Shown in pieces: positions 23,213 through 62,416 of a stretch of 64,000 bases of DNA. The notes under the pieces are model-generated. The model was not told where the DNA came from and searched no databases. It saw only the letters and a list, made by a program, of their open reading frames with translations. The DNA is from Mesaphorura yosii (taxonomy: Eukaryota > Arthropoda > Collembola > Poduromorpha > Tullbergiidae). Where the stretch lies: contig WIXG01000328.1 in NCBI GenBank assembly GCA_009869945.1, positions 1-64,000 of the forward strand, in the 5' to 3' direction. How positions within the stretch are numbered: the first letter of the stretch is position 1; every line of letters begins with the position of its first letter. The translations under genes were made by a program, and so were the position numbers.

Positions 23213-23947
23213 TTACAGGTTTCCTGTCATCGGTCTCATGACGGCCGTGTCCGGGTTGGCTTCCTGGTACCAGCGGGCAAACTGCTTCGGTCGGTACCAC
23301 CCAACCTTCCGCCAGCGTTGCTTGCCTCTTAACCGGTACTTGGAACGGACCCAAAAGTACTTTGTCGGCCCGTACGTGTAAATGGAGCCCGAACCGAGCA
23401 CGCCCGTAGGGTCCCCGTATATGTCGCCGCTGCCAGGCTTCGGGTCGCACCTCCCCGTGGCACCATCTCGCCTGAATCCCCGGGCGCATTTTACGGGTAC
23501 GCAAAGCCCGCTTCGAAAATACCGGATTTCTTGTGTGCCGCAACCGTCGCGGTCGTCCTCATAGTCATAGTATTCATCAGCGTCGTAGTATTCATCCTCC
23601 GCCTCGGCGTCCTCCGACCTGTCTTCGTCTTCTCCTTCAGCTTCATCCTCCTCCGCGCCTTCCCACTCGCCGGGCACGGACATGCCCTCCAACTCCGGCG
23701 ACCGATTTGATTCTGAGAAGTAGTAAGAGTGATACGCAGCCAGGTGGTGAGAATCCGAATCCGTTATGACAGTTGGCCAGTTTGCTTGTTCAGCGAGTTG
23801 ATTAGCGTCGTGGCCGTTGTCTGCTTTGGCGGGCCCTGCCGGAGCCGGAACTCTCCCTCCAGCTCGTCCAGCCGTAGGTTGAAGGCTCCAAAACGCAAAG
23901 GCCGCCCAGAGGAAGACCGCGAATGTCAGCGTGAATGAAGCTCTCAT
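23213..23947 (-). CDS. acidic secreted protein with four-Cys core, paralog 1
   Basis: Single exon, 244 residues, starting at the ATG at 23947 with a signal peptide (RASFTLTFAVFLWAAFAFWS). After it comes GRAGGRVPAP, then a long acidic stretch of Glu, Asp and Tyr (EDEYYDADEYYDYEDD). A compact core follows, DRDGCG..EIRYFRSGLCVP then KCARGFRRDGATGRCDPKPG, with four cysteines. The basic C-terminal part contains GSIYTYGPTKY and KQFARWYQEANPD. No known domain was recognised. The acidic Tyr-rich segment next to a basic tail suggests an extracellular matrix, mineral-binding or sulfated peptide role, but that is a guess. The tandem neighbour at 24291 shares the leader, the GRAGGRVPAP block and the Cys core. 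Confidence 0.75.
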   Translation of the reverse strand: MRASFTLTFAVFLWAAFAFWSLQPTAGRAGGRVPAPAGPAKADNGHDANQLAEQANWPTVITDSDSHHLAAYHSYYFSESNRSPELEGMSVPGEWEGAEEDEAEGEDEDRSEDAEAEDEYYDADEYYDYEDDRDGCGTQEIRYFRSGLCVPVKCARGFRRDGATGRCDPKPGSGDIYGDPTGVLGSGSIYTYGPTKYFWVRSKYRLRGKQRWRKVGWYRPKQFARWYQEANPDTAVMRPMTGNL

Positions 23948-24254
23948 CTTGCAAAGCAAACCTCAGATGTGCACAAGTTTCAGAGCAGAAATGAATGACA
24001 GACTTGTGGCTTCATTTTATTTAAGCACTCAAAGAAGAAAGAAATGACCTGCTACAAGCATTTGCGTGGCAGCCTTAATTAAGAGTACCTCTCTCGCCCT
24101 TTCGGTCCTGGTACGCGAGCACCCGGGCCCAAATTTTCCAAATGAAGGTCCGAGGACTTTTGTCATAACGCATATCTGGTCAATTAAGTACAATTAATGC
24201 GTCGCATTAAAATATGCAAATATGCTGTCTAAGCCAGTCAACATCGTTAAACAA

Positions 24255-24290: not shown

Positions 24291-25001
24291 CTAGGCCATA
24301 GGTTTCCTACCGGCGACGTCGGGATTTGCTTCTTTGTACCAGCGTGCAAACTTCCTTGGCCTGTCCACTGCAATCTTACGCACACGGTAGCGACCCGTGC
24401 GGATCGTCTTATACTTTGTCCGTCCGTACGTGTAAATAGAGCCCGAACCGGAACCGAGCAAGCCCACACCCACGCCCGCGCCGGTGAGGTAGTCGCCACT
24501 GCCAGGCTTCGGGTCGCACCTCCCCGTGGCACCATCTCGCTTCAGTCCGCGGGGGCACTTTGCAGGCACGCAAAGTCCACTCCGAAAGTAACGGATTTCT
24601 AGCGCGCCGCAACCGTCGCGATCGTCCTCGTCTTCATCATTTTCGTCTTCGCTCTCTTCTTCGTCGTAGTATTCATCCTCCTCCTCCTGGGGTTCGTCCT
24701 CACTTTTGCCTATAACTGCGCCTCCACCAGTGCCAGCGTCTTTCTCATTGACCACTGCCGAGGCGGGTTCCGTCTCAGGTTCAGGCTCGAATTCAAACTC
24801 ACTGGATAAAGAAACTTCCTCTGTCTGTCCTGGAGTCGCCACGAGAAGTTTCGCATTTTCACCGTTGCTGTGGGCCCTCCCTCCTGTTTTGGCGAGGCTT
24901 ACCGGAGCTGGAACTCTCCCTCCAGCTCGTCCTGATGCGGGCTGCGCATTCCAAAAGGCGCAGACAGCAGCCAAGAGGATGAACGTGGATAAGGCTTTCA
25001 T
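24291..25001 (-). CDS. acidic secreted protein with four-Cys core, paralog 2
   Basis: Single exon, 236 residues from the ATG at 25001. The frame is open further upstream, but this ATG gives the signal peptide (MKALSTFILLAAVCAFWNAQ) that lines up with paralog 1. The order is the same: GRAGGRVPAP, a variable acidic region (DEYYDEEESEDENDEDEDD), the core DRDGCGALEIRYFRSGLC...KCPRGLKRDGATGRCDPKP with four Cys, GSIYTYGRTKY, and RKFARWYKEANPD. The variable region differs much more than the core and leader, as expected if length and charge matter there more than exact sequence. No known family was recognised. It is head-to-tail with paralog 1, about 340 bp apart, so it arose by tandem duplication. 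Confidence 0.75.
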   Translation of the reverse strand: MKALSTFILLAAVCAFWNAQPASGRAGGRVPAPVSLAKTGGRAHSNGENAKLLVATPGQTEEVSLSSEFEFEPEPETEPASAVVNEKDAGTGGGAVIGKSEDEPQEEEDEYYDEEESEDENDEDEDDRDGCGALEIRYFRSGLCVPAKCPRGLKRDGATGRCDPKPGSGDYLTGAGVGVGLLGSGSGSIYTYGRTKYKTIRTGRYRVRKIAVDRPRKFARWYKEANPDVAGRKPMA

Positions 25002-25169
25002 CTTGCAGACGTTGGCGGAGATTTGTAGGCTCTGCGTGACCTGTAGAGTAGAAATGCCAGACAGATTCGTTGAAATTTGAACTTTTCTCCTTGAAATTGA
25101 TTTAAATTGAGTATTCAACAAAATGGAAATGGCGCAGTCGACGCTGCATTTGGACTGTAGCTGCAGCAC

Positions 25170-25708
25170 GAAAGTTTTAGTACCTCTTTCATTCTTTTAC
25201 TTCTGGTGACTCAATTGAAAGTCTAAGGATTTTTACATTATGACATGAGCGATGAACGAGTATGTTATTTATAACTCAGAGTTGTGCGTAAGCAGAAACA
25301 GAATAAGGACAGGTCAATTAAATACAATTAATGAGGCTCATCAAAATAAGCACACTCGCTAATCTCTCCCTTCGCCGACACGCGACAAAGACTACGATAA
25401 AGTTACGGTAGACGAAGGATAGCAACGACATCGCTTGTTAGTTGCAAGGATGGGAAAAATGCAAGCAATTCCTGGTTTACTTAGCATGCGCACGTGAGAA
25501 TCAAAAATTACTTGAGTAAAGTATTTTGAGGCTTGGAAGTTTCCTAGTGCTTCTTGCTTTTTCTATGGTCCGACGTCTTTTTGAGCATTTACCTCGACAG
25601 TTTGCAGCTTTTGGTGCAGATTTGGCATTCCATAATTTCCTGCTGCTTGCTGCATGCATTCACAATTCAGGCCTGCATCGCTTCGCTCGTCGTCGATAGG
25701 CACAATAA
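25170..25708. other. divergent intergenic region
   Basis: It separates the minus-strand acidic-protein gene from the plus-strand GPCR gene. No feature was recognised. Confidence 0.5.
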
Positions 25709-26788
25709 ATGGCCACCAAAACGTCGTACCCGGCCTCTCAGTCGCTACTGCTCGTCGCGTATGTGCTCTCCAATCTCATCGCCATACTCGATAACGCGTT
25801 CATCATCCGAACGATTCGCCACCGTCGAATGCGGACGACGACCTTCGCTCTGATCGCCAACCAGGCATTCAGCGATTTGATGTGCGGGCTGCTGTATCTC
25901 AGCCAGCTCTTCCTCTGCTCCACACGCCTGCTCTCCTTCGGCCTTCCGGGTATCGCCGTCTGCGAGGCGTCGTTCACGCTGATGCTCGCCACCTTTCAAG
26001 TGTCGATCCTATCAATGTGCGCCATCTCCATCGAACGATACCTCAAACTTTGTCGCCCGCATGGCGGCTACGTCCTCCAGCCACGGCTGACGATCTTCAG
26101 TATTTGGGGGCTCGCACTCCTCGTCACGATGCTCAACTCCCCTGAGACGAGGTTCTCACAGTTCTTCACGCCCACCCAGATTTTTGGCTGCCGCATTTCG
26201 ATCCCGACGGGCCTCCCCTTCTTCCGGTCGCACTACAACCACGTTTTGCTGCTACTCTTCACGGTTGTCTGTCAGGTCACCGTCCTAAATGTGATGTACT
26301 ACAAAATCATCCGCAAAATCTGGGGAAAGAAACCCGTCGTCGTGCGGTTGGACGTCGCACACGAAGCATTCGACGAGAACAAGCGGCAGATGACGAAGAT
26401 GCTGCTCATAATTCTGGTCTCCTACACCATCTTTTGCGCTCCGCTCTTGTTCACTTTCGCCGTGCACTACTTTGTCGTGGAAATCCTACCTGAGCCCTGC
26501 AACGCGGCGACGGAAGAGGCGTGGTTGTTTCACGTGGCAAGCTTCCTCATACTTGCGAGCGCCGGAGCCAATCCGTTCATTTACTGCAAGTATAATCGCG
26601 TGTTCAGGTCAGAGGCAGAGACGCTCCTGCAGCGGATCAGGCGGACGTGCACGCGTGATCAGGCGGGCGACGGGGGCGATGGCGGAGACGAACTCTGGAT
26701 TTCTTCTAAAAGTGCAACGAATACGAGCAGCACTTCGACTTCGCAATCGTCGGACATTCCAGTCGTACATTTTGCAAGAAGGCCATAA
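25709..26788 (+). CDS. class A (rhodopsin-like) GPCR, copy 1
   Basis: Intronless, 359 residues, seven hydrophobic segments. TM1 starts near residue 13. TM2 is in FALIANQAFSDLMCGLLYLS. ERY (in place of DRY) at the end of TM3 is followed by LKLCRP, and CAPLL lies in TM6. TM7 has the NPxxY-type motif NPFIYCKYN. A Ser/Thr-rich C-tail (SSTSTSQSSD) offers phosphorylation sites. These are hallmarks of a plasma-membrane G-protein-coupled receptor; the ligand and subfamily cannot be assigned by eye. A convergent paralog lies at 26994-27941 with near-identical TM2-TM3 segments. The lack of introns suggests an origin through retrocopying or simple intron loss. Confidence 0.88.
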   Translation: MATKTSYPASQSLLLVAYVLSNLIAILDNAFIIRTIRHRRMRTTTFALIANQAFSDLMCGLLYLSQLFLCSTRLLSFGLPGIAVCEASFTLMLATFQVSILSMCAISIERYLKLCRPHGGYVLQPRLTIFSIWGLALLVTMLNSPETRFSQFFTPTQIFGCRISIPTGLPFFRSHYNHVLLLLFTVVCQVTVLNVMYYKIIRKIWGKKPVVVRLDVAHEAFDENKRQMTKMLLIILVSYTIFCAPLLFTFAVHYFVVEILPEPCNAATEEAWLFHVASFLILASAGANPFIYCKYNRVFRSEAETLLQRIRRTCTRDQAGDGGDGGDELWISSKSATNTSSTSTSQSSDIPVVHFARRP

Positions 26789-26993: not shown

Positions 26994-27941
26994 CTAGCGC
27001 GATGGCCTGCGTCTGAGCCAATCGAGGCCCTCCTTCGCTTCCGACCTAATCACTTGATTATATTTGCAGTATATAAATGGGTTCAAGCAAATGCTCGAAA
27101 TGAGGGCAAAGTATGACAGCTGAAACCACCACGGCTCGTCCGTCGCCTCATTGCAGGGCTCCGGGAGGATGTGCACGACGACGTAGTGGAGCGTGTAAAT
27201 GATAAATAGCGGGCTGCACAGGCTGAAGTACAGGACCACAATCACAATCAGCATCTCGGTCATCTGGCGCTTCGACTCCTCAAAAGCCTCCGTCGCTTCC
27301 TCCGACTGGTTGCCCACGGGCGATCGTGCCTGAATCTTCGCGATGACTTTGTAGTACGCGGCGCCCATGACCGCCGCCGGGGCGGAAGCGGCGAGGAGCA
27401 GCACGATGACGTGGTTGTAGTGCGATCGGAAAAAGGTAAGGCCCGTCGGGACGGAGATCCGGCAGCCAAAGATTTGCGTCTCTGTGAAGAATTGCGAGCA
27501 CCTCGTCTCGGGGAGGCTGACGAGCGTGAGCAGGAGCGCCAACCCCCAAATGCTGAACACCGTGCGCCACGGCTGAAGCACGTATCCGCCGTTCGGGCGA
27601 CACAGTTTGAGGTACCGCTCGACGGAAATGGCCGTCATCGTTAGGATGGAGACTTCGAACGTCATCAGCATCAGCGTGAACGACGCCTCGCAGACGACGG
27701 CGCCAGGCAGTCCGAAGGAGAGCAGACGTGTGGAGCAGAGGAAGAGCTGGCTGAGGTACAGCAGCCCGCACATCAGATCACTGAACGCCTGGTTGGCGAT
27801 CAGAGCGAAGGTCGTCGTCCGCATTCGCCGCCGGCGCACCGTACGGATGATGAACGCGTTCCCGGCCGTGGCGACGACGCTCGTTAGGACGTACGCGGAG
27901 AGAAGAAGCCAGTCAGCCCACGAATACGCGTGGGCAACCAT
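26994..27941 (-). CDS. class A (rhodopsin-like) GPCR, copy 2
   Basis: Intronless, 315 residues from the ATG at 27941. It shares RMRTTTFALIANQAFSDLMC and LYLSQLFLCSTRLLSFGLPG with copy 1, ERYLKLCRPNGGYVLQPW after TM3, GCRISVPTGLTFFRSHYNH before TM5, and NPFIYCKYNQVIRSEAK at the end of TM7. The C-tail is short and lacks the Ser/Thr stretch of copy 1. TM4 to TM6 are more diverged than TM1 to TM3. It is a seven-helix receptor with an unknown ligand. The two genes converge tail to tail, about 205 bp apart, so the pair arose by inverted duplication. Confidence 0.88.
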   Translation of the reverse strand: MVAHAYSWADWLLLSAYVLTSVVATAGNAFIIRTVRRRRMRTTTFALIANQAFSDLMCGLLYLSQLFLCSTRLLSFGLPGAVVCEASFTLMLMTFEVSILTMTAISVERYLKLCRPNGGYVLQPWRTVFSIWGLALLLTLVSLPETRCSQFFTETQIFGCRISVPTGLTFFRSHYNHVIVLLLAASAPAAVMGAAYYKVIAKIQARSPVGNQSEEATEAFEESKRQMTEMLIVIVVLYFSLCSPLFIIYTLHYVVVHILPEPCNEATDEPWWFQLSYFALISSICLNPFIYCKYNQVIRSEAKEGLDWLRRRPSR

Positions 27942-29063
27942 TGCAAACGAACGCGGAGCGAAGGAGCTCTCAAATGGAAATGCGGGCTCGCACGTCGCGC
28001 CTGAAATTGCACAAAAGCAAAGACCGCATAGAAAAGAAATCGCGACCTCGCGAATAATTCACTATAATTTTCGAAATCACATGATACAGAATTCATAAAG
28101 AAAATTCCTGTTGTAATTCGAAATTCACAGAATGCTAGTATGCGGTCTCGATTCGGCCAAGGCAGACAGCCAGTCTAACCCGTTATCATCAGAAAGAACA
28201 TGAAAAAGTTGGTAAAACAACGGCAGTCCTACTAATTATGCTAAAAATTACAGGTCCCAGTCTTGAAATTCACGAACCGCCAAATTATGTCCGAATTCAT
28301 CTATGCTGGGACAGCAAAAGAAAGCTCCGTTCATTTCGAAATTCGCAATTCACAGCGAGCGAAATCAATTTGCAAGTCACAAAATGGTTATAACTGACTT
28401 GGAATTTCGCATCTTTGAATTCTATGGCCACCTGGCCGGGTGCACTTTTCCTTTCGCCCTGGAATGGGACCATCAGCAAAAATTCCTGCACACCTGCACT
28501 TCGCGCTCCAAACTAGCGGCGGGAGGCGGTTTCATGACCACCAGTCGTGTACATGGAGAGTCTGGGTAAGGCAGAGAGACCTCCCGACAGGCAGAGTACA
28601 GCCATGCGCACAGGGGGTGCTGAACCAGAAACGTTGTATTTTAAAAATTTTATGGCAAGTTACCCGATTTTAATTAGTGGAGTCTATGTGTACAATTATA
28701 AATTCCATTTAAGTAATTGTTATCATGTTATTAACTGCGAAATGTCAATAAATCCAAGTTTAAATTTTCGGTCAACCTAATTTCGCAGCATTTAGAAGCT
28801 CCTTGTAATGAGTACCAAGTAGTTAGTTTGGACCTACGATTTGCCAACCACCAACGCCTTTTCACTCGACGGCAGAGTTCCGTAGAAGGTCCGTGTAGCT
28901 ACGTCTCTGACCTTCGTAGTTTCGCATTCGGTTGTGCATTAGAAAGTTCTTTGAGACTACGCTGGGGCTACCGGAGACATTTCAGCAACTTCCTGCGGAT
29001 GCTCGCAACTACGCAACTCGAGCTACTTTGTCGGTTCAGTGTGTTCGAGTGCTACATGGGCTA
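27942..29063. other. intergenic, no gene assigned
   Basis: A GC-richer patch at about 28430-28620 keeps a short open frame, but no start, splice context or family match was found. A segment near 28985-29000 on the minus strand reads RSCEHPQEV, which resembles the end of a chitin-binding type-2 domain, but it could not be connected to the gene at 29100-29497. Confidence 0.4.
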
Positions 29064-30899: not shown

Positions 30900-31611
30900 A
30901 ATTAGCAGATAAATAATCTCGAATTCACGAGAATTAGCAATAGCATTAGCACGAAACACGAAACTTTCGCAATAAAACTTGACACCACGGTCGTAAACTT
31001 AAATGTTCATTTGTTCTTTTCCGTCTCATTCATTCCTCCCACAGCACAGCAGCTGTGCTCTCGGTCCTTGTTTTTCTGGATCCTTTCACACTTGATCTCA
31101 AAAACAGCAGCAGCAGAACATCGGCTGGCCGGTCGGCTCGGCGATGTGCGGAAGTGCGGACGACTCTTTCTTTCTTTCTTTCTTCAGAATTTAATAAAGC
31201 AAATCGTCAACGTCATCGATTCTTCAATTATTCATCTCTCAAAGTCAGACTCAGAATGTCATTAAGTTTAGTTAGCTTATAATCTAGTTATTTAATTGTC
31301 TAGTGAACCTACGTGCCTGCCAATTCCACCCGACAATCAATGCGAACAAATAGAAGGTAAGAATTTCGTAATCGTACGAGCACGAGATTGGACCCCGGCC
31401 CGAGCATTTTCATTGATAAGGAATTCAATGAGGCATGCGAGACAGGACAGGAAAGAGCCTAGTGGTTAGTTAGTGTAATAGTGCAGTGATAAGACTTGGG
31501 AATTGTGTAATTTTTCAGTTGAGGTTATGCGTAGTTGTGTTGCTAATTTCAGATTATTGCCATCGCAAATTCCCAACCCAAACCCAATTAACTCGCTCGC
31601 TGTGGAGAAGG
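30900..31611. other. 5' region of the PARP-Deltex gene with a TTTC microsatellite
   Basis: A (TTTC)n tract runs at about 31165-31185. A possible 5' UTR exon ends at a GTAAG near 31354, and an acceptor (CTAATTTCAG) lies near 31552, so a non-coding first exon is likely. Confidence 0.35.
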
Positions 31612-34600
31612 ATGCCGCGGGGAGGGCGATCCCTATCCAACCCGGCGTCGCCTCCGAGCTCCGCCACGACCGCAGTCACGCCCACGCCGAACGGAACCAC
31701 AACCAGCGGCCAGGCTTCTGCGCAACACCAACACAGCGCCCCACAACCACCGTCGGGGTCGGGGCTTCAGTATCCTGTGCGTACACCTGCTGCTAGTGGA
31801 GCCGGCTCCTTCAATCATGCACCTTTGTCTACCATCAACATGACATCAATAATGAATCAACTTTCTCAGCATGCAAGTTATCCAACCTTCGGCAGTGGCG
31901 TCGGGAGTGGAGTCGGCAGTTTGCCACATCAGCCTTGGATTTCCAGCCCCTCTGGTATCGGGTACGTGTATTCATTTTCGTATGCACCGACACATCCTGC
32001 TTATCCTCCAACTCCGTCGACGTCTGCTCCGGCTCCAATGGGCGGGTCAGGTTACCTGTCCTATCCGAGCGGCTCTCAGAATCAAACGACGCAAGCCGCA
32101 GCTTCAAACATCAATGGGGGGCAGGCGCCAAATACAGCCCCAGTCGCGTCGGTCCCGCCACAGCCACAGTCAGCAGCGCCTACGCCGACGATGCCCCCGC
32201 AGACGGCCATCCGTGGAAGAGGGAGAGGACGCGGTCGGGGCGGGGTCGGTCGACCGAGAAAAACTGCTGCCTTGATGCCAACACCAACACTGACTTCATC
32301 CACGGCGGCCGCACCAGCCGCAGCCGCCGGTCTGCAGGGCGGGGGTTCTCAGCCTCCGCCTGCTCATGTGTCTTCAAATGTTCCTGCCGCTGCACCTCTC
32401 GGGCCATTAGGGCCATTACTCGGATTAAGTAGTCGTAACTTAAGTCGTCCTGCGATGCAAAGACATCGATTAGTGCAACATTCGCATCCTTGGTCGAGGC
32501 CACCTTCCGTTCACACTCTCTTTGGACACTCTGCCGCCCAACCACCGCCCGCCTCGCTTCTTCCTCCCACCTTGGCCAAAGCTCCTTGCCCGCCAAACTG
32601 GGCTCAATCGCTTCTTCAAGCCACCGCCCAAGTCACGAGTCCATTTCTGAAGTTTCCCGTCGTCAAAACGTCCGCCGAGTACGCCACCCTCTCGCAGATG
32701 TTTGGGCCCACGATGGGCGACGTGGAGCGGGTCGTGAACCCCGAACTCTGGAAGCGTTTTACCCGTACCCGCGCCGATCTGCTCACGTCAAAGTCTGATG
32801 ACCTTATTCTCCTTGCGTCGCTGGGGCTCAACGAGGCCGAAGTCGCGCAGAGGGCGCACGTGTCCATCAATTTCGACAAGGGTCACCTGAACGGGAGCCC
32901 GTACTGCGACAACGTCGTGCTACTGTTCCATGGCTCCCGTGGCCACGGCTCCGTCGACACGATTCTGAGCCAAGGACTCGATGAGCGGCTGGGAAATACA
33001 GGCGGCCTGATGGGGCGTGGAATCTACTTTTCTGACGAGCCGCAGAAAGCCATGCAATACGACACGAACGGTGTGCTCATTGTCTTCGCCGTCATGCTGG
33101 GCGACTGTCTCGCGATTCCTGGGGGAAGCGGCGGTGCTGTTCGCGAACCGGAGAAGGTCGTGACTCAGAAGAGGAACCATCAAGACCTGTTTTTCGACTC
33201 AGTCGTAGGGTGCCCGACCGCCGTGCACAACGAGTATGTCGTCTTCAACCGGGCGCAGTGCTGCCCACTGTACACGATCTCGTATAATAAATGGGGGCAG
33301 GCCACGCCGACGGTGCCCGCCTGGAATCAGACACCTACCTACGGAGAGCACGTCGAGGCCCGCCAGCGCTTGCCTTCCTTCGCATGGGGTGTAGGCGTCG
33401 GCTCAGCAGCGACGGCCCAGACGCAAAGTCCGTTTTACGCTCGGAAAATATTTTCGGCCATGGCGGCTGATGCTGACGACGTTGGAATGGAAACGGAAGA
33501 CGACGAAGCAGGCTCATCAGCAGTGCGGCGTAACGCAGCCACGACCGCGACTGGAGCACAGCAGTCGGCGATGACGAATCTGAAGACGGCCCAGGAGCTC
33601 GATGAAGAAGAATCGTTGGCCGTTAAGCTCAGCCAGCTCACGGAACTCGGGTTCTTGGACGACGACAAAAATAAGGACCTCCTGGAGCAGTTCGGCGGCA
33701 ACCTCGAGACGACAATCGACTACCTGCTGGAGGAGGCCGCAGGCTCAGGCCCGAGGGCACTCAATACTCAGGCGACGGCGGCCGGTCCGACTCCAGGCAC
33801 GTCCGCTTCTGCGATCGCCGCCATGGCGGCGGTGGCGGCGCTAGCAATTCCATCCACATCCACTTCAAGCTCGGGCTCGAGTCTGACAAGTCCGACCCCA
33901 AAAATATTTTCCCTCTACGATACAATTGACTTGACGGACACCGACGAGGAGCAGGAGACCACCCCAGCTCTGCACTGCAAGCTCCCTCGGCTGGGCAGCC
34001 TCAGTACCGTTACCGTTGCCGTTCCTCAGAATTGCTGTGGAGGTGGAGGGCAAGGGGCAAGCTCCTCAAAAGCGACTGTGACAGCGACAGCAAGCGTGGC
34101 GGGTAAGTAAAAGGCGTAGGCTTAATTTTCAGTCGAGATAAGCCCTACGTTTCGTATCCACACTCACTGACGACTGATTTTTGCCCACTCAGCCGACGGC
34201 GCGATGGAGTGGCTCGACTCTCTTCTGAAAGACTACGACGTTTCGCCGAAGGACATGAGCATGAATGCGGCTGGAGACGAGGAAGGTGACATCGCTGGTG
34301 CTGGCGACGGCGAGGGCAGAGACAAATCAACGGGCGCTGTAAACGAGAATGAAGAAATGGACGCGGAGGAGGAGGAGAACGCGGTGACTCAACCACCACC
34401 AACTCCGCCCCCAACGGAGGAAGAATGTCCCATCTGCTTCGTGGAGTACTCGCTTGGCCCGGAAGGAGCGGCCGACTGGCAGGTATTCGGCATGAACAAA
34501 ATTTCTTGCGGACTTAGCCGTTGTATGGTCTTGGTGGGAATTTAAAATTTGAATTTTTGCCTTTGCCGCTTGCCCTCCAGACACTCCCCTGCGCCCACAA

Positions 34601-35069
34601 AATCTGCACCGCCTGCCACGCTCAAATGCAGAGTTCCGGGACGACTATGTCTGGGCAGTCGCACACGTTCATAAAGTGCCCTTTCTGCCAAGCCTGCGCT
34701 GGGATCCAAATTGGGAGCTGCCCCGACGGCTCCATGACTGTCCTTAAGCTGCCGACTCGGGCAGCCGGCTACCCGACCTGCGGGTCGCTCTCCATTCGCT
34801 ACTACGTGCACTCAGGGCGCTACACCCTCGACCGCACCGCCTACCTGCCCGACAACACCGAGGGACAGCGCATCCTCGCCCTCCTCCGCACCGCGTGGGA
34901 CCGGCGACTCTGCTTCACGATCGGCACGAGCATGACGACCGGCGCGAAGAACGTGCTCGTCTGGAATATACATCACAAGACGGCGCTGGCTGGCGGGACG
35001 CACGGCTACCCCGACCCGACGTACCTCCAGCGGGTTGCTGAGGAGCTGATGCAGTATGGAATTCAGTAA
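31612..35069 (+). CDS. PARP-UBA-SIM-RING-Deltex-C fusion protein
   Basis: Exons 31612-34102, 34193-34482 and 34581-35069 join in phase, 1,089 residues. The ATG at 31612 was chosen because the longer open frame starts with GTG in probable leader sequence. In order: a Pro/Ser-rich low-complexity N-terminus; an RGRGRGRGGVGRPRK patch (AT-hook/RGG-like, about 200-217); a PARP catalytic domain with FHGS (His440), GIYFSD (Tyr472) and NEYVVF (Glu541), the H-Y-E triad; a UBA-like segment (about 668-710, TELGF...GGNLETTIDYLL); IDLTDTDEE (772 on), a SUMO-interaction-like motif; a RING split by an intron (CPIC909...CAHKICTAC...CPFC); and a Deltex C-terminal domain (GIQIGSCPDGSMTV, YLPDNTEGQRILALLRTAWD, FTIGTSMTTG, HHKT, HGYPDPTYL). 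It should bind NAD and ADP-ribose, recruit an E2 and couple ADP-ribosylation with ubiquitin ligation, probably in the nucleus. AATAAA lies at 35296. Confidence 0.93.
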
Positions 35070-35295
35070 CGCAGTATCCAGCCCACAAAAACTCAAAATT
35101 CAAGCCGCCTTTTGCCATTTTGCCTCAGCCAACTTCGAATTATCGTCTTCCAATACCATTCCACGTAATACGCCAATACGCCTATGCCTTCGTTTATACT
35201 TGAATACTTGAGATAGACTGATATACGCCATAAATATTACTTAATTTATAGCGCAATTTAACATAATGCAATCATTACTTTAGTGCAAACGAAAA

Positions 35296-35301
35296 AATAA
35301 A
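35296..35301 (+). terminator. polyadenylation signal, PARP-Deltex gene
   Basis: AATAAA lies 227 bp after the stop. Confidence 0.5.
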
Positions 35302-35790
35302 CGAGAGTTTAGTAATTTTTGGGACGTGTGCGTCTGGCGTAATTTGTTTTGAGCTTTGTGTAAATTTTGATAGGTACACGTGGCCCGGCACTACTACGCA
35401 CTATGACTTGAACTCGAGACATTTTTGACATCCTAGGACACGAGTACTCTAATCCGCAACGTGACAAGTTTCTAAAGCGCAATTGGTGAATATGAGTACA
35501 CCTCCTCCATTTTGGGGTTCTTGTGAGCTGCTTCCACAATTTTAAACCTTATTTGACTTTTCCTCATCTTTTATGTAAATTACTTGCAAGCAAATATTTG
35601 TATGGCACATGACATTTCGAATTTTGGATTTCTCAGGCGGATTATTGTTCTGGACGGACGCCGCTTGAGGATAAGTAAAGCCAAACCAATTTCCATTTTT
35701 ATTAGCCACGAGCCCGACATTTCATTCCCCTGTGAATTGCATGCAAGACTCTTTTGTGACCAAATTTGAAGGCTGATCTTGTCAGTGCTG
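35302..35790. other. intergenic, no gene seen
   Basis: No supported feature; the short minus-strand frames here lack starts and family matches. Confidence 0.5.
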
Positions 35791-50617: not shown

Positions 50618-50855
50618 TGAACATCAAAACGTGTCAGCCAGCGTGAATTGAGTCTCAACTCAATTTCAATCGCTCACGCTTTTACAACGTGATTCGCTGC
50701 GATTTGAATGACAGCAAGTCCAATTATTGCCAATTTTGTAACAATTCGTTGTTACTTCAAGTGTTTACTTGAACGGCTCCAAGAATTTGACGTGCTTCTG
50801 GAATTTTGGAATTTTACGGTGAATATCGAGATTTTATATTCAGTATGAAAGCAAG

Positions 50856-52301
50856 ATGGGTTACGGCCGCATTCTGTGTACGTTTCTCATTTTAGGGGCT
50901 TTGGCCACGTTTGCAGAAAATTCGACTCTGGCCGTTGTGCCCCATAATTTCTATGGCCAGCCCCTGAAGGTAGTACTCCAGGAATTCTGGTCTAGGCACG
51001 CCCCGGAATTTGGGACCCACACCGCCCTGACCGTGAACGGGAGTGAGTTCCACGCCCTCGGACCTGGCGTGACGCCCTTCTGGGATTTTCAGGACACGCT
51101 GAACTTCAGCTTGCGCGTGCTCGTCAGCAGTCGGACGGTGAGTGAAACCATCAGAGAAGGGAAGAACGGGACGGTAGAGGGTAAAGAAGGACAGTGGCTC
51201 CTATCCGGGGAGGCAGACGTGACCCACACGTACAGCCTCGAACCGTTCATACTCCGTGTGGGGTACTTCACGTATTTGCACCCCGTCCGGACGCAGTGGC
51301 ACTACGTTTTCTTCAGGCAGCCGCCCGTGCTGTTATACAGGTCAATTTACTTGGACCCCTTCACGGCGGCTTTGTGGGTGGCCCTGGTTTACACGTGGAC
51401 GGCGATCATTCTGGCTCTTTTCACCGCAACCGCACGCGCCACGCGCCAGCGAATTGGCGGGGTTGAGATCAGGGTTGGCGCTGGCGCTCGCCTTTACAGG
51501 ATGGCTCTGTGGAATATTTCCACCGTTACAGGAAAGAGTTTTCCAATCACAGAATCACAATCGGAAGAGGATACGCGTTTCTCGACGAAAGTGGTGACTC
51601 TGACGGCCAGTGCTCTCAGCTTTCTCGTCCTCTCCGTCTACACGGCTCTCATCATCTCGACGCTGTCGCTCCGTGTGGATCCTGTAAAGCGGCTGTCCGA
51701 CCTGCTGCAGTACGGCTACAAGGCCGTTGGGGCACCTGGCTACCCCGACCCTCGGGACTTCACGTACGACAGGGCGCTGGGTGACCGGCTGTACGGCATG
51801 ACGAGGCACAATTTTCGGAGCTACGAAGACACCATCGTCAAAGTGCTGACAGGTGCAGACGTCGGCGGCAATCACACCCAGACGCCACGCACGCGTTACG
51901 CGGGCTTCGAAGTCATGCATGGGTTCTGGATGAATGCCAGGCTCGGGAATTTCACAACCTCTCAGATTTGTGGCCTCTCCAATTTTCGGTCGCTCCGTCC
52001 ATTCAAGCACGCGATGATCCTGCGAAAAGACTCGCAGCTGAAAGAAGCCCTGAACCGAAAAATCTTGCAAATCACCGAAAACGGGCTGAATCGGAGACAC
52101 GAGGCTCATTTCCGGCTGACGGTCATCGACGACTGCCCCGCCCCGCCGCGGTACGTGTACGACCCCATCAATCTGACGGATACGTGCGAAGCGTTCTACG
52201 TCATGTTGTTTGGGCTGGGCTGCACTTGTTTTGTGCTTCTGGTAGAAAATCTTGCGAAGCGAACAATGCTGGCCTCGTTGACTAGAAATTGGAGCCGTTA
52301 A
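50856..52301 (+). CDS. ionotropic receptor (iGluR-like chemoreceptor), copy 1
   Basis: Intronless, 481 residues, ATG at 50856 with a leader (ILCTFLILGALATFA). There is no large amino-terminal domain; the protein starts with a short S1 ligand-binding lobe (FYGQPLKVVLQEFW..., EADVTHTYSLEPFILRVGYF), followed by M1 (FTAALWVALVYTWTAIILAL), a pore region (LWNISTVTGKSFP), M3 (SALSFLVLSVYTALIISTLSL, with VYTAL where iGluRs have SYTAN), the S2 lobe (FEVMHGFWMNARLGNFT..) and M4 (FYVMLFGLGCTCFVLLVENL). This domain order is that of divergent arthropod IRs, ligand-gated cation channels of sensory neurons. Copies 2 and 3 lie nearby. Confidence 0.88.
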   Translation: MGYGRILCTFLILGALATFAENSTLAVVPHNFYGQPLKVVLQEFWSRHAPEFGTHTALTVNGSEFHALGPGVTPFWDFQDTLNFSLRVLVSSRTVSETIREGKNGTVEGKEGQWLLSGEADVTHTYSLEPFILRVGYFTYLHPVRTQWHYVFFRQPPVLLYRSIYLDPFTAALWVALVYTWTAIILALFTATARATRQRIGGVEIRVGAGARLYRMALWNISTVTGKSFPITESQSEEDTRFSTKVVTLTASALSFLVLSVYTALIISTLSLRVDPVKRLSDLLQYGYKAVGAPGYPDPRDFTYDRALGDRLYGMTRHNFRSYEDTIVKVLTGADVGGNHTQTPRTRYAGFEVMHGFWMNARLGNFTTSQICGLSNFRSLRPFKHAMILRKDSQLKEALNRKILQITENGLNRRHEAHFRLTVIDDCPAPPRYVYDPINLTDTCEAFYVMLFGLGCTCFVLLVENLAKRTMLASLTRNWSR

Positions 52302-54148: not shown

Positions 54149-54381
54149 AGAGCCACCGCGACAATTTCGGCAAAAATTGAGTGCCGAGACTTTCGCTTTT
54201 CGATTTTCTGCGGAAACCTCAAATTAGTGAAATTAGAGTCATCTTCACTGCGCTTTCGCGAAGCGAAATTGTCACTTGAGACGCCAGTGTTTATTGCAAT
54301 TCACGTCAAATTGCCGTCTTTGCTCGAGAGCTGCTTGAAAATTTGCAAATTCAGTGTACCTTTTCTTTTGATCACGTTAAC

Positions 54382-55907
54382 ATGACTTTGAAAATCAAAT
54401 ACTTAATTTTCTTGCTTGTGGCTTGGACGCCGACGTACTTGAGCCGCCACGACGTCCAAAATTCTAGCACTGTCCTCCATAATTTTGGCGGTCGCCCACT
54501 TGTCGTCCTGCTGGAAGAATTCTGGACCCGTCCAACCCCCGAGCTCGGAACCCTCACGGCGCTGACGGTTAACGGCAGCGAATTTCACGCGTTTGGATTG
54601 GGCGTGCCGCAATTTTGGGATTTTCAAGATACGCTCAATTTTACGCTACGCATCTTACCAAGCAGCCGGGTCGTATCGGAGCGAATCAGTGAGAGCAGAA
54701 ACAATTCGGCTACGGGGGAAGGAGGGCGTCTGATGCGTGGGGAGGCCGACGTGACTCACATGTACTTGTTCGAGCCTTTTATACTCAGAATCGGCCTTTT
54801 CGAGTATTTGCATCCGATTCAAACGCAGTGGCATTACGTCATCTTCAAACAGCCTCCAGTCGTTCTGTATCGTTCGATATACCTGGACCCGTTCACGCTG
54901 AGTTTGTGGGTGGCCTGGCTCGGAGCGTGCGTGTTGATTACGATCATGCTTTATTTGGCCCGGGGTCTGGCGCTGGAAGCGCTGGAGGCGGAGCATTCAG
55001 GCTCGGGCGAAAGTGCAGCGGGAGGCTTAATTTTGTGGATGATTTCGACGGTTACCGGAGGTTGTAAGCCAGAGATTCTAGATTTTAGTCGGATTTCTGT
55101 CGGTTTTCTTCTTGATTGCCGCCAATCGATTATTCATTTGCAGGCTATTCAATTGGCAGCCAACGCGATGGCCCGTCCGTTAAAATGACGACTTTAACGG
55201 CGAGCGTCCTCAACTTCCTGATGCTCTCAGTTTACATGGCGCTCATCATCTCCGCGCTTTCCCTGCGCGTCGATCCCGTCCGTCACCTGCACGACCTCCT
55301 GGACTACGACTATCAGCTAATTGCCAGTCCCAGCCACTCCGACCCCCACGATTTCACCCTCGACACGGCGCTCGGCGATCGGCTGAACAACGCAATGCTC
55401 AGAGATTTCGGACTTGGGAGTTACGGTGATTTTGTTTCGAAAGTCCTGAAGTCCAGCCCGGCGAACGGATTTTACGCGGCTCTCGAAGTCAGGCACGGCT
55501 TCTGGACGAATGCAAAACTCCAGAATTTTAGCGCTTCTCAAATTTGCGAGTTCGACCAGTCCACTGCGGGCGCCAGCTTCCGGTCGCTGGTGAATTTCAA
55601 GTATGCGATGCTCGTGAGGAAGGGCTCGTCGCTCAAAGAGCCCCTGAACAGGAAGATTCTGCAGATTCTCGAGAGCGGAATCAACCGGAGGCACGATGCC
55701 AGCTTCTTGTGGAGCGTCGTGGAGCGCTGCGAGCCACCCTCGCGCCACATCAAGCACCCAATTAATCTCATCGACACAGCCGACGCGTTTTATGTGCTGA
55801 TTGCTGGCTTGGCGTTTGGGTGCCTTGCCTTGGCGATAGAAAAATGCAAAATGCGTGACAAACTCACGCGCGCGTGTGGACAATTGAAATTGAAAATTAG
55901 GAATTAG
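54382..55907 (+). CDS. ionotropic receptor, copy 2
   Basis: Exons 54382-55063 and 55144-55907 join across GTAAGC...TTGCAG with a split Cys codon and encode 481 residues, the same length as copy 1. The ATG at 54382 gives a leader (KIKYLIFLLVAWTPTYLS). It is collinear with copy 1: TALTVNGSEFHAF, WDFQDTLNFTLRILPSSR, EADVTHMYLFEPFILRIG, YRSIYLDPFTLSLWVAWLG, TLTASVLNFLMLSVYMALII (M3), EVRHGFWTNAKLQNFSASQI, INRRHDASFLWSVVERCEPP, and a C-terminal M4. The intron lies between the pore region and M3; copy 1 has none at that place. It is a predicted ligand-gated cation channel with unknown ligand. Confidence 0.87.
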
Positions 55908-61029: not shown

Positions 61030-62416
61030 TTAAAATCTCGCATGTCTTGCGAATTTTTCCACGAGGAGCACAGCGCACGGTTCACAAAGACCAAAGGCCA
61101 TCACGTAAAATGCTTCCATCGTGTCCGTCAGATTGATCGGATCCTTCGAGTACCGCTGCGAGGGTGCACAGCTTTCGACGACTGCGAGCATGAAATGGGC
61201 TTCATTCCGGCGGTTGATTCCGCTTTCGAGTGTTTGAACGATTTTTAAATTGAGCACCTCGCGCAGAGGCGAATCTTTTCTCACGAGCATCGCCTGCTTG
61301 ACTTGGGCGAGTGAGCGGAAGTTGGACAGGCCACAAATTTGATGGGCCGTGAAATTGAGAATTATTGCATTTGTCCAAAAGCCGTGCATGACTTCGAATG
61401 CTGCGTAATGCGTGTGTGGTGCTGTCGAGTCGCCCGCGAGCGCTTTGATGATAGTCTCATGATACGACAGAAAATTCTTATGAGTCATATTGTACAGTGT
61501 GTCACTCAACCCCCAGTCAAGAGTGAAGCCCTGAGGGTCGGGAGCACCCGGCAACTCAATTCCCTCGTAGCCGTATTCTAGTAGGCCTGGAAAGCGCTTA
61601 ATTGGATCCGCTTGCACTGACAGCGTCGACACAATGAGGCCCGTGTAAATTGGGAGAACCACGAAGCTGAGCATGCCAGCTGTCAATGTTAATAGCTTAA
61701 CTGAGAGCGGGAATTTGGAATCGTGAGCTGCTGCCTGGGTCAAGGGAAATCCTTTCCCGCTGATGGTGCAAATCATCCACAAGGCCACTCTGCAGACGCG
61801 TCCGATGTTTCCATCTTTTCGGCGTCTTCGACTTTGATAGCAGAAATCGTCAGAATTATCAACACCCATGTAAACACCAACACAAGCCACAACGGACCCG
61901 AGAAGGGGTCAAAGAGAATTGACCTAAACAGTACGACGGACGGTTGCCTGAAGAAGACGTAATGATACTGCGTACGGACGGGATGCAAATATGCAAAGTG
62001 CCCCAGTTCCAGGACAAACTGCTCTAGATTATACGTGTGGATCACGTCAGCCTCCTGGAAAATAGCAGCGCTCCAGCACTCGTCGCCGTATTGTTTCTGT
62101 CTTTTGAGATTTGCTGGTTTTCAGCCAGTTTACTGACAATCACTCTCAGGCTGAAGTTAAGCATATCCTGAAAATCCCAGAAGGGCGCCAGCCCCGGGCC
62201 CAACGCGTGGAATTCACTGCCGTTCACAATCAGAGCGGTCTTCGTCCCGAATTGAGGGGTTTCCTTGGACCAGAATCTTTGTAGAATTATTTTGAGAGGT
62301 CGGCCATTAAAATTTATGGGTACAGGGATGGAATTATTTGGGAGTTCGCAGGTTAGAGAGAGCGTGGGCAAAGGCGCCAGAGAAAGAAATGCAAATTGAA
62401 CGAGCGTGCGAGCCAT
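61030..62416 (-). pseudogene. ionotropic receptor, copy 3 (frame-disrupted)
   Basis: The minus strand from the ATG at 62416 gives a leader and S1 start (ARTLVQFAFLSLAPLPTL; ALIVNGSEFHALGPGLAPFW). Near 62055 the reading frame changes by one base before EADVIHTYNLEQFVLELGHF, and near 61790 it changes again before RVALWMICTISGKGFPLT, M3 (AGMLSFVVLPIYTGLIVSTL), S2 (FEVMHGFWTNAIILNFT) and M4. The whole chain is collinear with copies 1 and 2, so it was once a full receptor of about 480 residues. A TTTTCCAG at the first break could be read as a splice acceptor, but skipping the preceding conserved stretch makes that unlikely. Two frame breaks imply a recent pseudogene, unless they are assembly errors. 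Confidence 0.75.

Follow-up and report, generated by a model that had tools for sequence, protein, structure and literature searches.

Deltex (DTX) E3 ligases attach ubiquitin to ADP-ribose on proteins, at its 3' hydroxyl (PMC7615817), and two systems are described in which a PARP supplies or accompanies that mark. In MARUbylation, PARP7 writes ADP-ribose and DTX2, whose RING is followed by a Deltex C-terminal (DTC) domain, then ubiquitylates it (PMC12583694, PMC12402299). DTX2 does this in human cells on the ADP-ribose of PARP7 itself, with PARP7 activity required (PMC12583694), so the PARP and DTX steps already pair in trans; ADP-ribose on the androgen receptor is likewise made by PARP7 and read by DTX2 via the DTC domain (PMC12402299). 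In the second system, PARP9 binds DTX3L tightly and PARP14 associates with the two less firmly (PMC13224862), which again keeps PARPs beside a RING-DTC ligase; these are products of separate genes that meet via KH domains, and macrodomains are present.

Fusions of a PARP to other ubiquitin-pathway domains are also on record. UBCc-PARP fusions occur in fungi, moss and a green alga (PMC2964712, PMC4245714, PMC1266365); the fungal ones (Citarelli clade 6A) carry an E2-like domain rather than a RING-DTC ligase. PARP6/8 homologues with a UBA are described from Acanthamoeba and Trichomonas, and a PARP with a U-box, i.e. a RING-like E3 domain, from Dictyostelium (PMC4245714, PMC2964712). A DTC domain is not named for any of these proteins in the available excerpts.

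We describe a predicted gene in a 64-kb window (the whole stretch of Mesaphorura yosii DNA analysed) that places a PARP catalytic domain and a RING-DTC module in one chain, whereas PARP7 and DTX2 are two separate human proteins.

A three-exon gene model

Exons at 31612-34102, 34193-34482 and 34581-35069 on the forward strand, spliced in silico, give one open frame of 1089 residues without a frameshift, in a window free of N letters. Exon 1 holds the start codon, a low-complexity N-terminus and the PARP, UBA-like and SUMO-interaction (SIM)-like elements, and ends in phase 1; exon 2 encodes an acidic linker and then the first half of the RING; exon 3 encodes the second half, the DTC domain and the stop. 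Intron 1 (34103-34192, 90 nt, GTAAGT...CAG) brings in an in-frame stop if retained, and intron 2 (34483-34580, 98 nt, GT...AG, phase 0) interrupts the RING. Both joins, phase 1 between exons 1 and 2 and phase 0 between exons 2 and 3, keep the frame. The sole A[AT]TAAA hexamer in 33901-35700 is an AATAAA located after the DTC domain (35296-35301, forward strand). Reading of the sequence upstream of the start codon gives a putative intron in the 5' untranslated region (31357-31552, forward strand, GTAAGA...TTTCAG).

The open run of exon 1 is 830 codons, against a longest run of 328 (mean 153) in 500 mononucleotide shuffles of that exon, and the stop that closes it sits inside GTAAGTAA, which contains the full GTAAGT donor motif (13 copies on the forward strand of the 64 kb). 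Codon usage was scored after training on seven further long frames from the window. In the coding frame the score is 0.267 over the PARP part, 0.143 over the remainder of exon 1, 0.223 over exon 2 and 0.256 over exon 3; every sense frame of the two introns and of the 3' flank scores below zero. The start of exon 1, a low-complexity third, runs against this pattern: there the coding frame has the poorest score (-0.187; the other two sense frames -0.043 and -0.003), though it is the only one without a stop, and the low-complexity sequence may explain this score. An alternative acceptor for intron 1 at 34132/34133 was rejected, as it reaches a stop after 12 codons, and a sigma-70 promoter and terminator scan of 34000-34300 was set aside as uninformative for an animal genome.

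Because of the coding signal and the GTAAGT donor we favour one cis-spliced gene, predicted from the sequence, with the join of exons 1 and 2 as its weakest point. The single-polypeptide, three-exon model proposed in the first-pass annotation is borne out to this extent, short of RNA proof: its 1089-residue frame is intact, and codon signal and donor agree with it.

A PARP domain with a complete triad

The PARP catalytic domain (32707-33285, forward strand; residues 366-558) matches Pfam PF00644 with E 4.2e-13 and 49.7 bits in the whole protein, against a curated cut-off of 26.7, and its core fragment scanned alone reaches 54.6 bits. The H-Y-E triad is complete (H440, Y472, E541), exactly at the positions read by eye in the first-pass annotation. 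Among the best 60 of 72 sequences matched, the closest solved structure is tankyrase-2 (E 1.3e-7), followed by tankyrase-1, PARP12 (3.3e-4), and PARP2 and PARP1 (0.0035 to 0.012). H440 and Y472 fall inside the tankyrase-2 alignment and the E541 stretch aligns weakly. The C-terminal half of the domain, searched alone, gave no PARP match in the PDB and matched PF00644 (positions 175-198) at an E of only 0.046. Since this half is weak on its own, E541 is assigned from three things: the match of the domain as a whole to the profile, the weak match of the local stretch to it, and the motif NEYVVF.

At one site in the pocket, tankyrase-2 has Ser and this protein Ala (A480). The triad Glu leaves synthesis of poly-ADP-ribose (PAR) possible and differs from PARP7, which has a residue other than Glu at the third triad position. 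Tankyrase identity was rejected, with no ankyrin or SAM match in Pfam at E <= 1, and we see none of the Cys-rich zinc stretch of tankyrase. A match of the PARP core to ART-PolyVal (E 0.016, 16.4 bits against a cut-off of 31.2) was set aside as below cut-off.

The RING and DTC domains

The RING is encoded in two parts on the forward strand, 34426-34482 (C909, C912) and 34581-34688 (C931, H933, C936, C939, C960, C963). All eight ligands are present, spread over the intron at 34483-34580, in agreement with the earlier call of a RING split by a phase-0 intron. Scanned within the full-length protein, the domain clears none of the Pfam cut-offs; it passes those of PF13445 and PF00097 only as an isolated fragment. 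It directly precedes the DTC domain, as in Deltex E3 ligases.

The DTC domain (34713-35063, forward strand; residues 972-1088), also called from the letters alone at first, is confirmed by PF18102 at E 3e-36 and 125 bits (cut-off 25). Against solved structures, the RING-DTC segment matches DTX2 (2.7e-29), DTX3L (6e-27) and DTX1 (2e-26), with 42 to 48% identity to these three over the aligned part. An alignment of the protein with DTX2, DTX3L, DTX1 and one bacterial DTC places H1058, H1068 and E1082 at DTX2 H582, H594 and E608, which are reported to be catalytic or ADP-ribose-binding residues (PMC11460948). H1058 and E1082 thereby take the places of the catalytic His and Glu of the DTC domain, and H1068 that of its ADP-ribose-binding His/Tyr.

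The protein departs from the Deltex family in several respects. It has an N-terminal PARP and UBA-like segment, and its DTC domain lacks two stretches: the residue between WN and IHHKT that adjoins the catalytic His (WN[E/D]IHHKT in the three human rows), and, from a loop (IQGPEHPNPGK...) that all four other rows of the alignment contain, 12 to 14 residues. WN[E/D]IHHKT and the IQ..EHPNPGK loop are common to the three human rows compared, which does not establish them as Deltex-defining. Pfam found no WWE domain at E <= 1 in the 1089 residues, which sets the protein apart from the PARP7/DTX2 pair and from the DTX1/2/4 subgroup with its N-terminal WWE domains. Unlike the PARP14/PARP9/DTX3L set, the protein has no macrodomain match in Pfam. 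Drosophila Dx, for its part, bears N-terminal WWE domains (PMC8424196). Single-sequence AlphaFold2 models were unusable (mean pLDDT 35.2 for 162 residues of exon 3 and 30.7 for 236 residues around the PARP).

Accessory elements

Three smaller elements lie in exon 1. A UBA-like segment (33598-33732, forward strand; residues 663-707) stays under the Pfam cut-offs (22.2 bits against 27 for UBA_NBR1_C) and finds the Dsk2 UBA as its best match in a phmmer search of the PDB (E 2.6e-4). The motif IDLTDTDEE, noted at first sight, is present at residues 772-780 (33925-33951, forward strand); a pattern tailored to it occurred in 0 of 5000 protein shuffles, and as a SIM it is a short motif only. Of the AT-hook/RGG patch suggested initially (32212-32262, forward strand; residues 201-217), the RG repeat stands, at residues 201-211, and the AT-hook was rejected at 11.2 bits against a cut-off of 17.4 (E 0.39). 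A chromatin or DNA-damage role, for which the basis is the short SIM-like motif and the RG repeat, may be entertained as putative.

Relatives and neighbouring genes

A PARP-Deltex fusion was not found in the literature searched, including under compound names (PARP-Deltex, PARP-DTC), which is weak evidence because most lists of papers were cut short; nor does one appear in the available excerpts of PMC10450202, PMC10810221, PMC12687431 and PMC8424196. The PARP-RING-DTC fusion may thus join, in a way not described in the papers listed, enzymes that are known individually and already work as partners in trans; this is a weak judgement, since the comparison was with those lists of papers and not with eukaryotic sequence collections.

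Searches of viral contigs gave three stretches with the RING-DTC query, 13 with the RING-DTC alignment query and nine with the PARP query, none of them confirmed. Phages searched with the PARP query and plasmids searched with the DTC query gave no match. Among genome contigs, the RING-DTC alignment query returned 40 stretches and one confirmed locus, in Endozoicomonas elysicola; of 369 genomes drawn from the class of that bacterium, it alone has a DTC. The bacterial DTC domain (L001:4054-5567; PF18102, E 2.7e-40) lies in one frame, and an overlapping upstream frame of 332 residues, without a Pfam match, ends just inside the start of the DTC frame, which suggests a gene divided between two frames.

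Ten neighbouring frames in the window include, by Pfam, a tyrosine kinase with Ig domains, a rhodopsin-type receptor, parts of an ABC transporter with TMD0, and a C-type lectin, a content that marks the genome as animal. We also note some families: (i) Related receptor-like genes lie at 50823-52298 (forward), 54280-55904 (forward) and 61033-61908 (reverse), 49 to 57% identical in matching pairs; three frames scanned, which did not include 54280-55185, had no Pfam match above cut-off, and the family appears to resemble divergent ionotropic receptors; such chemoreceptor-like genes would fit an arthropod or other invertebrate. (ii) A rhodopsin-type GPCR (Pfam) at 25709-26785 (forward) adjoins 26997-28058 (reverse) in opposite orientation, and their products are 65% identical over 311 residues. 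(iii) Tandem paralogues at 23216-23962 and 24294-25196 (both reverse) are 45 to 47% identical, acidic and possibly secreted; the former has no Pfam match.

Proposed activity and competing readings

We read the locus as one gene for a bifunctional enzyme, a probable single-chain writer of ADP-ribose-linked ubiquitin, and put the probability of this reading at roughly 0.6. The PARP domain would move ADP-ribose from NAD+ onto a target or onto the protein itself; the RING-DTC module would read that mark and ubiquitylate it on the same target, with self-modification a likely mode. The UBA would then hold the attached ubiquitin, and localisation of the protein would be helped by the SIM-like motif and the RG patch. 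This write, read and ubiquitylate scheme on one target is the most economical. The fusion puts a pair like PARP7/DTX2 or PARP14/DTX3L in one chain. That one protein might both write ADP-ribose and ubiquitylate was already suggested in the first-pass annotation, and the presence of PARP and RING-DTC domains in one chain supports the idea at the level of domain content. From the observed reading frame, domains and conserved catalytic residues we infer that one mRNA contains all three exons, that each activity is functional, and that the two act sequentially on the same target; the identities of the targets are likewise conjectural. Several features weigh against this reading: the gap beside the catalytic His and the shortened loop of the DTC domain, A480 in the PARP pocket, the weakness of the C-terminal half of the PARP domain, and the low codon score at the start of exon 1. 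The fullest form of the scheme, a self-contained enzyme of an animal lineage that adds ADP-ribose, couples ubiquitin to it by an ester bond and retains the product via its UBA, we put forward tentatively, at somewhat under even odds.

A special case of this reading is a self-limiting PARP, whose auto-ADP-ribosylation would serve as its own degron once ubiquitylated by its own RING-DTC. PARP7 offers a parallel, as it is a target of ADP-ribose-ubiquitin made by DTX2 and rises upon DTX2 knockdown (PMC12583694), and having both modules in one chain fits; the UBA, SIM-like and RG elements point to partners other than the protein itself, and we hold this special case to be somewhat unlikely. Unlikely, too, is a weak or dead PARP domain that serves for docking, as PARP9 does for DTX3L, in an otherwise ordinary Deltex ligase acting on the ADP-ribose of other PARPs. 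Such a protein would account for A480 in place of the tankyrase-2 Ser and for the divergent C-terminal half of the domain, and PARP9 is reported to lack activity and to bind DTX3L tightly (PMC13224862); against it, a dead domain would not need kept catalytic residues, and here the triad is complete and the core scores twice its cut-off (54.6 bits against 26.7).

The remaining readings question the gene rather than the enzyme, and we give them little credence. The locus could hold two genes or transcripts, e.g. an operon with trans-splicing: a PARP-UBA protein ending at TAA 34108-34110 and a 255-residue RING-DTC protein starting at an in-frame ATG in exon 2 (34204). Read-through of exon 1 does meet a stop at most 8 nt past the splice point, but that stop falls within GTAAGTAA, a full GTAAGT donor that is one of only 13 on the forward strand of the 64 kb; moreover the frames join in phase, the gap is only 90 nt, and the two parts have neither AATAAA nor ATTAAA between them. 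This makes two genes very improbable. Least probable is a decaying pseudogene or an assembly join, which is raised by the fact that a single genome is the source of the architecture; it has against it the N-free window, 1089 codons without a frameshift, a codon signal retained outside the low-complexity N-terminus, and retained catalytic residues.

If the single-chain writer is real, its triad Glu could even permit the building of PAR and the ubiquitylation of chain ends. The fusion would offer a single-protein reagent with which to make and study the ADP-ribose-ubiquitin mark, and a route to asking which lineage gave rise to the link. That the ADP-ribose writer is covalently tied to the ubiquitylating step speaks for a functional pairing, and the protein would then be a natural fusion showing PARP and Deltex as functional partners.
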